From contig NZ_CP053351.1 of the NCBI RefSeq assembly GCF_013394655.1, positions 2,386,501 through 2,450,500 of the forward strand: a stretch of DNA of 64,000 nucleotides. The letters are read 5' to 3'. The translations under genes were made by a program, and so were the position numbers. This DNA is from Winogradskyella schleiferi (GTDB lineage: Bacteria > Bacteroidota > Bacteroidia > Flavobacteriales > Flavobacteriaceae). Shown here one piece after another: positions 53,426 to 60,320 of the stretch (its first letter is position 1; each line of letters opens with the position of its first letter). The notes under the pieces were generated by a model that was not told the DNA's origin, did not search any database, and worked only from the letters and a program-made list of their open reading frames with translations.

Positions 53426-53836
53426 TCAATAAGTTTTGTTATTTAGAGCTCTGTTAAGCAAGCCCATAGCTACATATAAAACTGGAGAGATTAATAATTC
53501 TTGAATTGTTCTTGCAAAACGACTTAAATTTAGAACCGTTTTTCCTTCTAGAAACACCCAATCATATATACCAATACATGTAATAATACATAATCCCAAA
53601 ATATGTACAATGTGCCAAAGAGATGCCATCCAAGTAACCTTCAATTTTCCAAGGTGAAATGTACCTACGAAGTATACAGCTACAGTAAATAATAGAGAAA
53701 TTAAGTGTCTTAATTTCCTTGGAATTAATGCTGTATTTTTATGTTCTGCAATAAATATATAATAACAGGAGTATATGATAAAAATAATAATAAGTCCAAT
53801 AATAAAACGAACCCTATCGGATTTGTAAAGCTTCAT
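53426..53836 (-). CDS. Four-helix membrane protein next to the exosortase
   Basis: 136 residues with four predicted membrane helices (around 12-30, 44-62, 70-90 and 112-128). I do not recognise the family. It overlaps the exosortase gene upstream by 23 bp, so it is translationally coupled and is probably an accessory factor of the sorting system. It is the last gene of the minus-strand operon. It does not match the exosortase F-associated protein as I remember it. Confidence 0.78.
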   Translation of the reverse strand: MKLYKSDRVRFIIGLIIIFIIYSCYYIFIAEHKNTALIPRKLRHLISLLFTVAVYFVGTFHLGKLKVTWMASLWHIVHILGLCIITCIGIYDWVFLEGKTVLNLSRFARTIQELLISPVLYVAMGLLNRALNNKTY

Positions 53837-54410
53837 TTTTTAAATGTATTTTTCTAGCAAACAACATCCATAATAGAAAAGTCGCTCCATAAACGGCTGT
53901 TTTAAATAAGTATTTGTGGGCAAAATCGAAATATAATTCAAAATATTCACGCAAATATATTAAACCAATACATCTAAAGATATTAACCATATCTAGAAGT
54001 ATAGCTCCTAGGATAATGTACAGTACTTTACGCCAAAAATTTGATGGCATACACACTATAAAACCAATATATAGCACAATCAATTCCAATCCATTACAGA
54101 CGTCTGCTATATGTAAAATACTTTTACCATTATGATATATTTCTGAGGCTTCTACTGTTGTGTATTCACCTTCATATAAGGTTGTCTTAGCTTCCCTTAC
54201 AGCTTCAAATCCAGACATGGAACTAAATCGATTTAGTAATTCTGTCGATGCCTCACCAACATGCGTAGTTAAAGGGTAATCTAAAATTTTTGAATCTAAT
54301 AAAAAACCAACATAGATAATTTTCCATGCAACAAAAAACAATAAGGCTTTTCCTAAAAAAAGCCTTATTGGTAATGGAATTTCATTCTTTAACGAACTTA
54401 CGTTTATCAT
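53814..54410 (-). CDS. Exosortase/archaeosortase family transpeptidase
   Basis: 198 residues with about six membrane helices. The exosortase catalytic residues are all visible: Cys105 in ADVCNGLEL, Arg146 in VNIFRCIGL and His165 in FDFAHKYLFK. Such enzymes cleave or transfer proteins carrying a short C-terminal sorting signal (motif, hydrophobic helix, basic tail). The gene directly upstream, overlapping by one base, encodes a 69-residue protein with exactly such a tail, so it is the dedicated substrate. The subfamily (which Xrt) cannot be assigned here. Confidence 0.87.
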   Translation of the reverse strand: MINVSSLKNEIPLPIRLFLGKALLFFVAWKIIYVGFLLDSKILDYPLTTHVGEASTELLNRFSSMSGFEAVREAKTTLYEGEYTTVEASEIYHNGKSILHIADVCNGLELIVLYIGFIVCMPSNFWRKVLYIILGAILLDMVNIFRCIGLIYLREYFELYFDFAHKYLFKTAVYGATFLLWMLFARKIHLKNEALQIR

Positions 54411-54619
54411 TACTTATTATTATCTCGTAATTTTTTTACTCCATATGCCGCCGCACCTATTACCAGGGCAATTAGCCCACCATCTAGTGGAATAGCATCT
54501 TGAGTGTCAGTAGCTCCTCCCGGAGGTCCTTGTGCGTATAAGTTCGTTGTACTAACTATTGCAAAAACAATAACTACTGTACTAATGACCTTAATAAATT
54601 TGATTTTTGAATTTTTCAT
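54410..54619 (-). CDS. PID-CTERM-like sorting-signal protein, tiny mature peptide
   Basis: 69 residues in three parts. There is a Sec signal peptide (1-30, ending NLYAQ), a 13-residue linker (GPPGGATDTQDAI, 31-43), and a C-terminal tripartite tail. The tail is PLDGG (44-48), a hydrophobic helix (LIALVIGAAAYG) and the basic end VKKLRDNNK. The PLDGG box followed by a Gly/Ala-rich helix fits the PID-CTERM class of sorting domains. The processed product would be only about 13 residues plus whatever stays attached. It sits between the giant T9SS protein (13 bp upstream) and the exosortase (1-bp overlap). Confidence 0.82.
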   Translation of the reverse strand: MKNSKIKFIKVISTVVIVFAIVSTTNLYAQGPPGGATDTQDAIPLDGGLIALVIGAAAYGVKKLRDNNK

Positions 54620-54632
54620 TGTTTCTATTTTA

Positions 54633-57600
54633 TTAATTAATAATTAATTTTTTAACTGTTGTTTTTCCTTGAGAACTCAATTCTACAAAATATGTACCCA
54701 AATCTAATTTTGAGGTTGCATCAATAGTGACTCTACGCCCTGCAGTAAATCCAGTTTCATTGTATAATCTAGCACCTAATACACTGTAAATTGTTACTTC
54801 TAAATCATCCATGCCTAATGGAATATTTAAATAAAATTTACCAATGTTTGTTGGGTTAGGATACAATAGGATTTCCTCCATATCTGAAGTGCCAACTGAT
54901 AAAGCCTCTACACTAAAGACTATCGTAAATCGGCTAGCGTCAATAGAACCAGAAATTTCTGAATCGATTGTATAATCATAATTAACGATACCACTTTGCG
55001 GAATTTGCGTATATGAATCCGTAAAGTTATCATATAAATATGCCGTTGCACCTTGCATAGAGATACCTTCTGCCACTATTGTATAGTTGGTATTTCTGTA
55101 GGTATTAATTTCCAATTGGATTTCTTCCTCATCCATTGGTGTCGCTCTACTTTCAATACTCAATAAAACATCGTTATTATTAGTTGCGAAATTCTCATCT
55201 AGGTTAGTAATATTTTGAGCGTCATTAGCATCAACAGTATTACTTCCTTCGGTGTCAAATAAAATCAATAAGCCATCTGTAGCCGTCTCGTTGTTAGCTA
55301 ATGCACTACTTTCGTATAACGATAAACGTAATTGCCCTTGGCTAGTCAAGTCACTTGATTCTCTAAATGTTGATGTTTCAAGTCCGGATGAATTTTTACT
55401 TGCTTGTGTAAAACTTACAGACGATACACCAGCTCCTGCTGTGTAAACCCAACCTGCTTGTCCTGCTTGTAAATACTGATTGGCATCAGAATCTCCTGAC
55501 GAAGCCGTACCAGAAGATGCAATTATAGCAGTATATGCTCCTCTTGCACCTAGGGTTGGATCCCAAACCCAGTAATAATTAGGACTTATATTTGTTGCAT
55601 TTGTCGTTAACACAACATTCATATCTACTTGAGACTGGAATGGATTACCAGCAGCAATGAATCTTTGTTCAGGTACATTGACTGAGATAGTTTTAGATCC
55701 TTCATTCTCTGCAGTTAACTCCCCTGTAGCACGTAATGTGGTTACAGACGGCGTTGCTTCATTATTTGTTAAATCCGTTGTTCTGTCACCTCTAATTAAG
55801 GTATGATACATAGTTCCTGGATATAAATTAGTGGCATTGGTGTTAGCCATTTGCACATAGTCATAAACCATATTATCAAATATATACATAGATGGATTAC
55901 CAGTTTCTGTTTCATCAAAGCCATTTATATTACCTACTGGTCCAGTAATATGGGTATCTAACTGCCAGTTCTCAGATATAGGAGTGCTTGTTGTTACAGG
56001 CGAACCTAATTGACGGTAAGCTCTTTTTGCAGGAATATATCGTTCTACCGTATAATCACCTACGAACATACCATTACCTGATCCTATATAAGCAGACCCT
56101 GAATCATCCGATTCAAAAGTAACTGTACCATCAGTATTATCAAAAACACCATCATTAGTAACCACAGCGTTTGGATTTACTGTTAACGAAGCTCCAGTTT
56201 CAACAATCACAGTCGAACATTCATCAATATAAAGATCTTGTCCATCCATTAATACAGGATAGTTAGATGATGATTCGATAAATACATTACCAGTGACCGA
56301 CAGTCCTGGTGCTAAGCCAGAAGCCCAGTTTCCTGCTTCGGTCCAATCTGAGTTAACGTTTCCTATCCAAACATAACTTTCTAAATCAGCACATGGATCT
56401 ACACCCTCACAAGTAATACTTAGGTCAAAATCGCCTGATCCTGATCCAAAGGCATGGACCAGCACAAAGTATTCTACTCCTGCTGTTGTAGGGATGGCAA
56501 GCTCTGACGAGAAATCTGAACAATTTGTACCATCATCATTTCCATCAATACAGGTTAAATCATCACAGACTCCAGTGAATACACTTATTTTAGTATCGAA
56601 GTTAGCCATATCGCAAGTACTAATTGTTGTTGTACCTTCAATACCAGTAAATGTATACCATACGCCATTGGCTGTATTAGAGATATTACAAGTTCCTACA
56701 TCATCAAAAGTAGCACCGGTTGTAGTTCCGCTTACTGTGTCTCCACAAGAAAGCACTTCAGCATTTGAACACAAGTCGTTATCTGGTACTGCTATTGGGT
56801 CTACACAAGTTACATTCATATCGATATTTCCTGTCGCACCACTGAAACCTTCAACTCTTACTAAGTAAGTAGATGATCCATCAGAAGTAAAGGTAACTGA
56901 TGATTGTAATCCACAGAAATCATCATTAAACACTAATTGACTTGCATCGTCACAAGGACCTGAGTAAACTGTAATATTCGTATCGAAATCAGAGTCACAT
57001 GTTTCTATAGTAACTTCTTCACCAGCAACTGTGCCAGTGAATGCATACCAAAGATCTATGTCTTCATTTCCGTCAGAATCTGTTGCTGCATCACTATTTC
57101 CCATGATGTTATCACCACAGGCAATAGCCTCTGCAACGTCACAAGCATCGTTATCTGGTCCAGGTAGTGGACATGTAAACGTGAATTCTCCTAAATCAGC
57201 GTCACATTCATCGTCTAATGCATCTACCATTAAGTTTACTGTATCACCACTGTTGTATGGTCCTGCTGTTACAGTACCTACTACTACTGGATATGTATTT
57301 GTTCCGTCACTAATCACAGTACCTGCGTCTCCAGCATCTGTAACATCAATTTCTACCGTAAACGTGCCTGTACCGTCTGGGTCACAGCTATCTACTACTG
57401 CTATATTTTCTATAGTTGGTGATACACACTCTGGCGCAGCCACACATGTAAGATCTAGTACAAACTCTGCAGTTCCTGAATAATCAAATATTCTCACTGT
57501 ATAGGTTCCAGCTGCTGGTGCATCTAAAGTAACTTCTTCAGGGCTACCACTATCACTGCACCCTAAACTTGTAAGGTCGACACATGGGCCTGAGTAAACG

Positions 57601-60320
57601 AAAATTACACCATCAAAAGCAAATCCTCCAGAAGCATCGTCTAAGCTAAGGGTATAGCTACTTGAGCCATCGGCATCGAATGTATAGAACAAGTCTTGTG
57701 CACTAGAGGATGTAAATCCACTACATTCTGCATCAAGACCAGAAGCCGTAGCATTTTCTGTGTTACCTGTAACGGTTACACCACATTCTAATGGCAATGC
57801 TCCTGCACAATCATCATTCTCTGGTGCTGGTGGAGGACATGTAAACGTGAATTCTCCTAAATCAGAGTCACAATCGTCGTCTGTTGCATCTACCGTTAAT
57901 GTTACAGTATCTCCACTATTGTAAGGTCCTGCTGACACAGTACCAGCTACTACTGGGAACGTATTTGTTCCGTCACTGATCACAGTACCTGCATCTCCGG
58001 CATCGGAAACTTCGATATCTACCGTGAATGTTCCTGTTCCGTCTTCATTACAATTGTCAACTACAGTTGTACTGTCTATTGTCGGTCCAACGCACTCTGG
58101 TGGAGCCACACATGTAAGATCTAGTGTGAACGCTGCAGTTCCTGAATAGTCAAATATCCTTACCGTATATGTTCCAGCGGCTGGTGTATCTAAAGTAACT
58201 TCTTCTGGGTTACCACCATCGCTACAACCTAAACTTGTAAGGTCCACACATGGCCCTGTATAAACAAAGACAACACCATCCAAACCAGTAGAACCAGTTG
58301 GTTGATCTAAGCTAACCGTATAACTACTAGTTCCATCTGCATCAAATGTGTAGAACAAATCCCTTCCGTCAGTGGAAGTAAAAGTACCACAAGTAGTATC
58401 AAGACCTGATGCCGTAGCACCTTCTGTAGTACCTGTAACGGTTACACCACATTCCAATGGAAGCGCACCTGCACATAAATCATTATCTGGTAATGGTGGA
58501 GGACATGTAAATGTAAAATTCCCTAAGTCAGAGTCACAATCGTCGTCTGTTGCATCTACCGTTAATGTTACAGTATCTCCACTGTTGTAAGGTCCTGCTG
58601 ACACAGTACCCGCTACTACTGGGAACGTATTTGTTCCGTCACTTATCACAGTACCTGCATCTCCGGCATCTGACACTACGACATCTACCGTGAATGTTCC
58701 TGTTCCATCAATACAGCTATCTACTACCGTTATATTGTCTATTGTCGGAGGTGTACACGTTGGTATTTCAGCACATGTTAAGGTGACATCTATTGTACCA
58801 GTTGTTGTACTTGTTCCACTGTAATGTGCAATATAAACTAAATACGTTTCATCTAGTGTTGATGCAAACGTGTGCGTTTCAGCTCCCAAAGAACTATCAT
58901 CACAAATAATATTAGTTAAATCTCCACAAACTCCGCTTGATATTGCCATTTCATGATCGAAGCTAGCTTCTGACGTCAACGTCATATCTCCTCCTGTTCC
59001 TGTGAAAGTAAACCAAATTCCATTTGCTCCCATTGTACAAGCACCTCCTTCTTGAGTACCTGTAGAACCAACCGACGTTGCATTGATTGTTTCACCACAA
59101 GCTATTGTAGTAGCATCTATACATGCATCATTGTCTGGTGCTGGTGGAGGACATGTAAATGTGAATTCCCCTAAGTCAGCATCACAATCATCATCTAACG
59201 CATCTACCATTAAGTTTACTGTATCTCCACTGTTGTATGGTCCTGCTGTTACGGTACCTGCTACTATTGGGAAGGTATTTGTTCCGTCACTGATCACTGT
59301 TCCTGCATCTCCGGCATCTGATACTACGATATCAACTGTGAATGTTCCCGTTCCGTCTTCATTACAATTGTCAACTACAGTTGAACTGTCTATTGTCGGT
59401 CCAGCGCACTCTGGTGGTGCTGCACAAGTTACCGCCAAAGTATAGTCGCCTGAAGCGCCTGTTCCATTAAAAGTACTAAAGAAGCCTTCTACTAATATGA
59501 GGTACGTTGTGGCGCCATCTGAGGTAAAGGTTATCTCTGATTGTAAGCTACATGAATCATCGTTTGAAAATAACTCTGTTCCATCACAAGCGTCAAAGAT
59601 GCGCATTAAAGTATCGAATGATGATCCGCACAAACTTGCCGTGATCTCTTCACCATTAGCAGTACCTGCCAATGAATAGAAAACATCCGAGGCACCGTTA
59701 CCAGCAGTATCCGTTGCACTTAAAGTTGAGCCCGTTACGGTATCACCACATGCAATTGCAGCAGCTTCCGCACAAGTATCGTTATCTGGTGCTGGTTGCA
59801 ATACATTAAATTCTAATGTCCAATCAAAAGGACCTTCCTCCCACTCATTTGACCATTCTATGTAGTAAACTTGACCCGAAAGTACTGGGTAACCAAGAAT
59901 TTCAGAAGCGTAAAAATCCCCAGATCCTAAGTCACATGAATCATCATTATTAATGACATCAGTCAATGATCCACATGTTCCAGTTCCAATACTTAAATCA
60001 GTATCAGCACCACCGAAACATGAACTAACATTAATGGTACCATCTCCAGGTGCTGTATAAGCAAACCACGCTGAATCAGGACCACCACCCATTTCTCCAC
60101 TTCCTGTTCCTGGCGTAATAGCTGTACCAGATTGGGGTCCTGCTGAAATAGGTACGGCAGAGGCACAATCGTCTTGTGCAAAACCTTGCCAAAAAAAGGC
60201 AAGCATCACAAACATTAACAAACATGATATACCCTTCCGTGAGGGATGAAGAATGTCGTTATTCAAAATTGAAAAATAAAATTTGTTGGATCGGGTGCGA
60301 AGAGTTGGTTTTCCAGTCAT
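54633..60320 (-). CDS. Giant T9SS-secreted repeat protein (putative adhesin)
   Basis: 1895 residues. An extended N-terminal signal peptide (to about residue 49) ends FFWQGFAQDD. Then come seven PPC/CUB-like beta domains opening with (P)-x-ND-x-C-x(2)-A (about 49-300, 390-520, 607-740, 827-965, 1047-1305). Four copies of an 85-residue domain with GTGTFTVDI and DAGDAGTVISDGTN (about 303-390, 523-607, 743-827, 968-1047) alternate with them. Residues about 1310-1815 form a region common before T9SS tails (YVWIGNVNSDWTEAGNW). The type A sorting domain (about 1815-1895) opens ILLYPNPTN and ends TTVKKLIIN. It is exported by the type IX system and attached to the surface or released. It is probably an adhesin or matrix protein. 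It leads the exosortase operon. Confidence 0.93.
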   Translation of the reverse strand: MTGKPTLRTRSNKFYFSILNNDILHPSRKGISCLLMFVMLAFFWQGFAQDDCASAVPISAGPQSGTAITPGTGSGEMGGGPDSAWFAYTAPGDGTINVSSCFGGADTDLSIGTGTCGSLTDVINNDDSCDLGSGDFYASEILGYPVLSGQVYYIEWSNEWEEGPFDWTLEFNVLQPAPDNDTCAEAAAIACGDTVTGSTLSATDTAGNGASDVFYSLAGTANGEEITASLCGSSFDTLMRIFDACDGTELFSNDDSCSLQSEITFTSDGATTYLILVEGFFSTFNGTGASGDYTLAVTCAAPPECAGPTIDSSTVVDNCNEDGTGTFTVDIVVSDAGDAGTVISDGTNTFPIVAGTVTAGPYNSGDTVNLMVDALDDDCDADLGEFTFTCPPPAPDNDACIDATTIACGETINATSVGSTGTQEGGACTMGANGIWFTFTGTGGDMTLTSEASFDHEMAISSGVCGDLTNIICDDSSLGAETHTFASTLDETYLVYIAHYSGTSTTTGTIDVTLTCAEIPTCTPPTIDNITVVDSCIDGTGTFTVDVVVSDAGDAGTVISDGTNTFPVVAGTVSAGPYNSGDTVTLTVDATDDDCDSDLGNFTFTCPPPLPDNDLCAGALPLECGVTVTGTTEGATASGLDTTCGTFTSTDGRDLFYTFDADGTSSYTVSLDQPTGSTGLDGVVFVYTGPCVDLTSLGCSDGGNPEEVTLDTPAAGTYTVRIFDYSGTAAFTLDLTCVAPPECVGPTIDSTTVVDNCNEDGTGTFTVDIEVSDAGDAGTVISDGTNTFPVVAGTVSAGPYNSGDTVTLTVDATDDDCDSDLGEFTFTCPPPAPENDDCAGALPLECGVTVTGNTENATASGLDAECSGFTSSSAQDLFYTFDADGSSSYTLSLDDASGGFAFDGVIFVYSGPCVDLTSLGCSDSGSPEEVTLDAPAAGTYTVRIFDYSGTAEFVLDLTCVAAPECVSPTIENIAVVDSCDPDGTGTFTVEIDVTDAGDAGTVISDGTNTYPVVVGTVTAGPYNSGDTVNLMVDALDDECDADLGEFTFTCPLPGPDNDACDVAEAIACGDNIMGNSDAATDSDGNEDIDLWYAFTGTVAGEEVTIETCDSDFDTNITVYSGPCDDASQLVFNDDFCGLQSSVTFTSDGSSTYLVRVEGFSGATGNIDMNVTCVDPIAVPDNDLCSNAEVLSCGDTVSGTTTGATFDDVGTCNISNTANGVWYTFTGIEGTTTISTCDMANFDTKISVFTGVCDDLTCIDGNDDGTNCSDFSSELAIPTTAGVEYFVLVHAFGSGSGDFDLSITCEGVDPCADLESYVWIGNVNSDWTEAGNWASGLAPGLSVTGNVFIESSSNYPVLMDGQDLYIDECSTVIVETGASLTVNPNAVVTNDGVFDNTDGTVTFESDDSGSAYIGSGNGMFVGDYTVERYIPAKRAYRQLGSPVTTSTPISENWQLDTHITGPVGNINGFDETETGNPSMYIFDNMVYDYVQMANTNATNLYPGTMYHTLIRGDRTTDLTNNEATPSVTTLRATGELTAENEGSKTISVNVPEQRFIAAGNPFQSQVDMNVVLTTNATNISPNYYWVWDPTLGARGAYTAIIASSGTASSGDSDANQYLQAGQAGWVYTAGAGVSSVSFTQASKNSSGLETSTFRESSDLTSQGQLRLSLYESSALANNETATDGLLILFDTEGSNTVDANDAQNITNLDENFATNNNDVLLSIESRATPMDEEEIQLEINTYRNTNYTIVAEGISMQGATAYLYDNFTDSYTQIPQSGIVNYDYTIDSEISGSIDASRFTIVFSVEALSVGTSDMEEILLYPNPTNIGKFYLNIPLGMDDLEVTIYSVLGARLYNETGFTAGRRVTIDATSKLDLGTYFVELSSQGKTTVKKLIIN
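57160..59420 (-). repeat. Long direct repeats inside the giant surface-protein gene
   Basis: Four copies of a roughly 260-bp unit (near 57170, 57840, 58500 and 59150) recur at about 660-bp steps. Parts are nearly identical, for example a run of more than 50 bases shared around 57868 and 58528. The intervening domains near 57433-57838 and 58092-58497 are also close copies. Confidence 0.85.

Follow-up and report, generated by a model that had tools for sequence, protein, structure and literature searches.

Recurrent pairing of RemA-like type IX cargo with PID-CTERM mini-proteins, viewed from an exosortase operon of Winogradskyella schleiferi

Why should the gene for a giant protein of the type IX secretion system (T9SS) be packed together with an exosortase and a 69-residue protein that carries an exosortase-type sorting signal? 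The question is raised by a 64,000-nucleotide stretch of the Winogradskyella schleiferi genome (contig NZ_CP053351.1, positions 2,386,501 to 2,450,500; hereafter the window), a genome assembled as a single contig of 4.56 Mb. The coordinates and sequences of its open reading frames (ORFs) place four minus-strand genes in a putative operon, in the order T9SS gene, PID-CTERM mini-gene, exosortase gene and membrane-protein gene, at distances of +13, -1 and -23 bp. The Bacteroidota promoter consensus matched 7 sites in the window, close to the 6.4 expected, and none of them lies ahead of the giant gene. A preliminary description of this DNA, which had given the same packing with the gene lengths, a 13-bp gap and overlaps of 1 and 23 bp, proved exact to the base. 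It had also taken type IX secretion and exosortase sorting to be genetically joined here, and this is supported by the recurrence of the T9SS gene and PID mini-gene as a pair across the phylum. Such recurrence in many Bacteroidota suggests that the peptide serves to anchor or display the giant protein, which is one of the two models given in that description and the one favoured below. The features concerned, with positions in the window, are:

54633..60320, minus strand: giant T9SS type A surface protein, 1895 aa (ORF; TIGR04183, PF18962, PPC, GBD_T9SS_assoc)
54873..56393, minus strand: RemA-like module preceding the C-terminal domain (CTD), aa 1310-1816 (profile comparison; AlphaFold2 (AF2) model, pLDDT 84)
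54636..54866, minus strand: T9SS type A C-terminal sorting domain, aa 1819-1895 (TIGR04183, 38.8 bits)
54410..54619, minus strand: PID-CTERM mini-protein, 69 aa (NF046080, 38.9 bits; sequence)
54476..54490, minus strand: PLDGG motif, likely the exosortase cut region (sequence; inside the NF046080 match)
53814..54410, minus strand: exosortase of an XrtX-like subtype, 198 aa, with C105/R146/H165 (TIGR04178 and PF09721 above cut-off)
53426..53836, minus strand: exosortase-associated membrane protein, 136 aa, with four modelled helical spans (outside all Pfam and NCBIfam families; AF2 model)

PID_CTERM was detected in 62 of the 395 genomes sampled across the phylum. We surveyed 94 hand-picked PID places in 55 of these genomes, one of which was dropped for its short upstream sequence; the W. 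schleiferi place and that of G154, both paired, were omitted from the 94, as were G319, G544, G640, G648 and G675. A pair was scored where a T9SS type A gene on the same strand ended no more than 520 bp from the PID motif. Such a gene lay directly upstream at 70 of 93 places, representing 41 of the 55 genomes and 9 of 12 families, while the control rate was 30 of 405 other ORFs in the same loci (7%), with distances counted from the motif for PID genes and from the ORF start for controls, a rule that is if anything laxer for the controls. An exosortase fell within the stretch read at only 6 of the 94 places, and the pairing is thus not a by-product of exosortase operons.

The T9SS members of these pairs have one part in common. 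The W. schleiferi protein is made up of a signal peptide, PPC and galactose-binding-like repeats, the RemA-like module and the CTD. Because the front domains of six scanned partners differ (PPC, RCC1, laminin-G, Ig, PATR, and one with none), it is the module that the paired proteins have in common. A profile built from 53 partners of a single family matched 18 of the 21 partners belonging to other families, but only 10 of 62 T9SS proteins with no PID gene behind them; the three partners missed were the W. schleiferi giant itself, a fragment from G163 and one partner from G408. The controls had initially numbered 74, of which nine turned out to be followed by a PID gene and three could not be judged. 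Of their 10 matches, nine fell among the 27 controls taken from the fetched neighbourhoods and one among the other 35, which are the top-scoring T9SS genes of two genomes rather than a random sample. When the profile was iterated on the partners themselves it matched 74/74 partners and 22/74 controls, a test which is circular. Within one genome (G480), the module was found in 11 of 95 T9SS proteins, six of these 11 being followed by a PID gene.

When compared with the sequences of proteins of known structure, the module profile matched only RemA and RemZ of Flavobacterium johnsoniae (E 7e-35 and 6e-32), T9SS type A gliding adhesins which likewise combine such a module with a type A CTD; the comparison covers those two parts, and in the structural work on RemA/RemZ the CTD of RemZ alone is described as well resolved (PMC10994853). 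No Pfam or NCBIfam family spans the module: matches were scattered, no family hit more than 3 of 40 members, and the W. schleiferi sequence had none. A structural search with its AF2 model gave no convincing neighbour. The CTD itself belongs to type A (TIGR04183, 38.8 bits against a cut-off of 23; PF18962, 37.4 bits), in a genome that encodes SprA. SprA was encoded in all 17 genomes checked, which supports the partners as true T9SS cargo. Type B cargo with an SprF-like partner was considered for the locus and ruled out, since the CTD fits the type A models and the downstream gene is a PID_CTERM gene. Separately, at L265, L272 and L306 the gene behind a T9SS protein with a related module encodes a PID-like protein without the second glycine (APIDG-F/L), possibly a variant signal.

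The mini-protein comprises a predicted signal peptide ending in YA before a Gln, a Gly/Pro-rich peptide of ~15 residues, PLDGG, a membrane helix and a basic tail. It belongs to PID-CTERM, both by score (NF046080, 38.9 bits against a cut-off of 26) and by the P-[IL]-D-G-G motif with its membrane helix and basic tail. By a simple pattern rule, 90 of 94 PID proteins show a small residue and then Gln ahead of the motif, as expected under the Q-rule for signal peptidase I of Bacteroidota (PMC5837995). The span from this Gln to the motif has a median of 13 positions in the 68 paired proteins where this site exists (15 in W. schleiferi) and a range of 12-67, whose long values partly reflect a wrongly placed site. 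With spans so short, the processed product would be a short peptide and not a folded protein. That PID is an exosortase signal is supported by co-occurrence: an exosortase match was obtained in 62/62 genomes of the phylum sample with PID versus 48/333 without, and in 121/127 genomes of the family sample (Flavobacteriaceae) with PID versus 45/172 without. The Fisher and binomial statistics calculated on the survey counts take no account of how the genomes are related.

The exosortase of the operon is a member of the superfamily (TIGR04178, 49.1 bits, cut-off 23; PF09721, 26.2 bits, cut-off 25.7), and the intact Cys105, Arg146 and His165 already remarked upon in the preliminary description are invariant in all 22 exosortases aligned. 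It scores below the cut-offs of both exosortase X (NF046081, 119 bits against 170, still its best family match) and XrtF (TIGR04128, 67.1 bits against 90), and is therefore placed in a related subtype with a membrane partner of its own. A true XrtF (237 bits) with its membrane protein is encoded in the same genome, as is a third exosortase, XrtK (TIGR04287, 139 bits; L013:1306-1827), which follows two ORFs resembling small membrane proteins. Close relatives of the operon's exosortase occur in 15 of 299 family genomes including W. schleiferi, the other 14 at 54-70% identity; below these, scores fall sharply to an XrtF-like level, and one genome holds a second copy (44%). Two further Winogradskyella loci encode it at 88% and 78% identity.

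The 136-residue protein encoded last had been labelled a four-helix protein. Its AF2 model (pLDDT 86) bears this out, with helices at 7-30, 40-62, 68-95 and 102-132, the last kinked, while a hydropathy scan gives only three strong segments. It has no family in Pfam or NCBIfam: neither NF046082 nor TIGR04127, the membrane proteins associated with XrtX and XrtF, matched up to E 1 (with a query lacking the first Met), neither matched the homologue in G408 up to E 0.1, and alignment with hhalign gave probabilities of just 0.4 and 0.3. Among 277 phylum genomes its gene was found in two, W. schleiferi and G408, both times adjoining its exosortase gene.

The exosortase half of the operon is a variant of a system catalogued in NCBIfam as PID_CTERM, XrtX and the XrtX-associated membrane protein (NF046080, NF046081, NF046082). 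It resembles that system in a mini-protein above cut-off, an exosortase closest to XrtX and a small membrane gene after the exosortase; it differs in the subthreshold exosortase, in a membrane protein that NF046082 does not match and in the T9SS gene that leads the operon. The XrtF system of the Flavobacteriaceae (TIGR04128 and TIGR04127; Fjoh_1448/1449 in F. johnsoniae, required there for colonisation and biofilm formation, PMC10936215) likewise has a small membrane protein downstream of the exosortase, but the exosortase here is of another subtype and the membrane proteins are not detectably related. The earlier statement that the four-gene set has no described function accordingly needs qualification: the literature searched yielded none for the set, but its exosortase half is a variant of what NCBIfam already names.

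Many of the Flavobacteriaceae PID proteins that lack an upstream T9SS gene are of a different, proline-rich type. These are proteins of 60-90 aa, encoded away from the exosortase, that combine a signal peptide and a proline-rich stretch with GLPIDGG or a similar motif and a membrane helix. W. schleiferi has a copy at G000:C1:4420629 (L010:1342-1590, plus strand) which, at 19.1 bits, is under the PID_CTERM cut-off of 26, and similar proteins are found in several of the loci L251-L305 of its relatives. We regard them as candidate substrates of XrtF, whose targets are described in a 2025 paper as not yet known (PMC12188702).

How far is the four-gene order kept? Eighteen loci of this exosortase subtype were available, from the 15 family genomes, the two Winogradskyella loci and G408, a genome of another family; genes in relatives were called as ORFs and not taken from annotation. 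The complete order occurs in five: W. schleiferi, W. ouciana (distances +13/-4/-23), W. sp. UBA3174 (+13/-1/-20), G163 (12 bp between giant and PID genes, 23-bp overlap of exosortase and membrane genes) and G408, with the T9SS genes of W. sp. UBA3174 and G163 cut by a contig end so that the C-terminal part alone is visible. Two loci have only the exosortase and membrane genes, lacking a mini-gene and lying beside apparent polysaccharide genes (judged from the ORFs, with no family search). At some loci of the subtype (L083, L084, L080), two PID mini-genes precede or flank the exosortase. At L085, L086 and L089, an exosortase with or without the membrane gene adjoins apparent polysaccharide genes and has no PID neighbour.

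The four-gene operon is thus real and conserved, and its core is formed by three genes, namely mini-gene, exosortase and membrane gene; the complete set is not family-wide, yet it occurs in two families. Since the order is kept in four other genomes and PID/T9SS adjacency was so much more frequent than among control ORFs, the arrangement exceeds chance. The co-occurrence of all four families, which had been proposed as a check, was borne out in those four genomes, while the full set was present at just 5 of 18 loci.

Taking the observed pairing and shared module as a starting point, we propose, with a probability of roughly 40%, that the mini-protein is processed by the exosortase to a short peptide which, once immobilised, serves to dock or retain the RemA-like protein of the same operon. 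The giant protein would use the T9SS to cross the outer membrane as type A cargo, as its CTD and the presence of SprA indicate. The mini-protein would leave through Sec and, following the Q-rule, would probably be cut by signal peptidase I before Gln30. By analogy with its family, the exosortase, aided by the four-helix protein, would then cut next to the membrane helix, at PLDGG, and the peptide of ~15 residues would be moved onto a lipid or glycan acceptor. Immobilised at the surface, this peptide may dock the RemA-like module and so keep the giant protein at the cell or in exopolysaccharide (EPS), acting as a sorting tag given in trans. Overproduction of RemA is reported to aggregate cells through EPS (PMC8481357). 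Most other genomes would presumably rely on an exosortase from a different locus to serve one or more pairs; at the W. schleiferi locus the pair is accompanied by an exosortase subtype of its own.

Recurrence of the four-gene set in another family (G408) counts in favour of this proposal, and a number of observations weigh against it. One family (f24) supplies 53 of the 70 phylum pairs, and the pair is rarer in Flavobacteriaceae, where 9 of 70 examined PID loci, W. schleiferi included, were paired (7 of 68 without G042 and G273, which had been chosen on a hint of adjacency; the places in G181, G131 and G119 belong to both this and the phylum set). Many T9SS proteins with the module have no PID gene: of the 16 ORFs that contain the 17 module matches in W. 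schleiferi itself, one is PID-paired. At 11 of the 18 loci of the exosortase subtype, the mini-gene, exosortase and membrane gene stand without an adjacent T9SS gene, and G124 encodes an orthologue of the giant (60%) with no mini-gene behind it. Six of the 127 family genomes with PID gave no exosortase match. The processed peptide would be very short and offer little for a specific dock, and type A cargo is described as already covalently attached to anionic lipopolysaccharide (PMC9143113).

A reading which we consider rather unlikely is that the giant protein and the peptide are co-produced yet reach one extracellular matrix independently, the peptide decorating exopolysaccharide or lipid with no contact to the giant. 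The two exosortase-membrane gene pairs that lack PID (L085, L086) and adjoin apparent polysaccharide genes, as noted above, are consistent with it. So are the reports that RemA-type adhesins bind EPS (PMC8481357) and that surface colonisation suffers in F. johnsoniae mutants of xrtF or Fjoh_1449 (PMC10936215). The tight adjacency and the module common to paired T9SS proteins suggest more specificity than a shared regulon would.

Assistance before export, rather than retention after it, appears improbable. Here the unprocessed mini-protein, held in the inner membrane by its helix, would aid its T9SS partner as SprF-like proteins aid type B cargo, to be removed later by the exosortase. SprF-like proteins are outer-membrane barrels. 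A cargo gene directly followed by a dedicated partner gene is an established T9SS arrangement, that of type B cargo with SprF/PorP-like proteins, and the gene order here matches it (PMC12618676); the mini-protein, moreover, has the signal peptide and membrane helix that such a role would use. The CTD, by contrast, is of type A and the partner is a mini-protein with an exosortase signal, not a PorP/SprF-like protein. According to the same source, SprF-like proteins act as shuttles, whereas the mature mini-protein has merely ~40 residues, and type A secretion needs PorV while type B does not. The near-constant company of PID and exosortase (62/62 and 121/127 genomes) further suggests that processing is the point. 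Least probable, and in our view very unlikely, is that the mini-gene owes its position to co-regulation or common inheritance and its product has no functional contact with that of the T9SS gene, as the dominance of f24 among the pairs and the 11 of 18 loci with a PID but no adjacent T9SS gene might suggest, given that pairs occur in 9 of 12 families and repeatedly within one genome beside different T9SS proteins, against a control rate of 7%.

The pairing bears on two questions in the Bacteroidota, namely which substrates exosortases have and by what means T9SS adhesins stay on the surface; it supplies candidate exosortase substrates, each with one partner protein. Literature searched on PID-CTERM, XrtX, exosortase X and the T9SS sorting domain together with exosortase gave no description of the T9SS-PID pairing, nor was an anchor peptide supplied in trans found there as a mode of surface attachment. 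It is possible, if doubtful, that the arrangement represents a general device of the Bacteroidota, in which a T9SS adhesin with a RemA-type module is accompanied by a downstream mini-protein whose immobilised peptide is its anchor or receptor in trans. If true, the sorting signal would be separate from the protein that is sorted.

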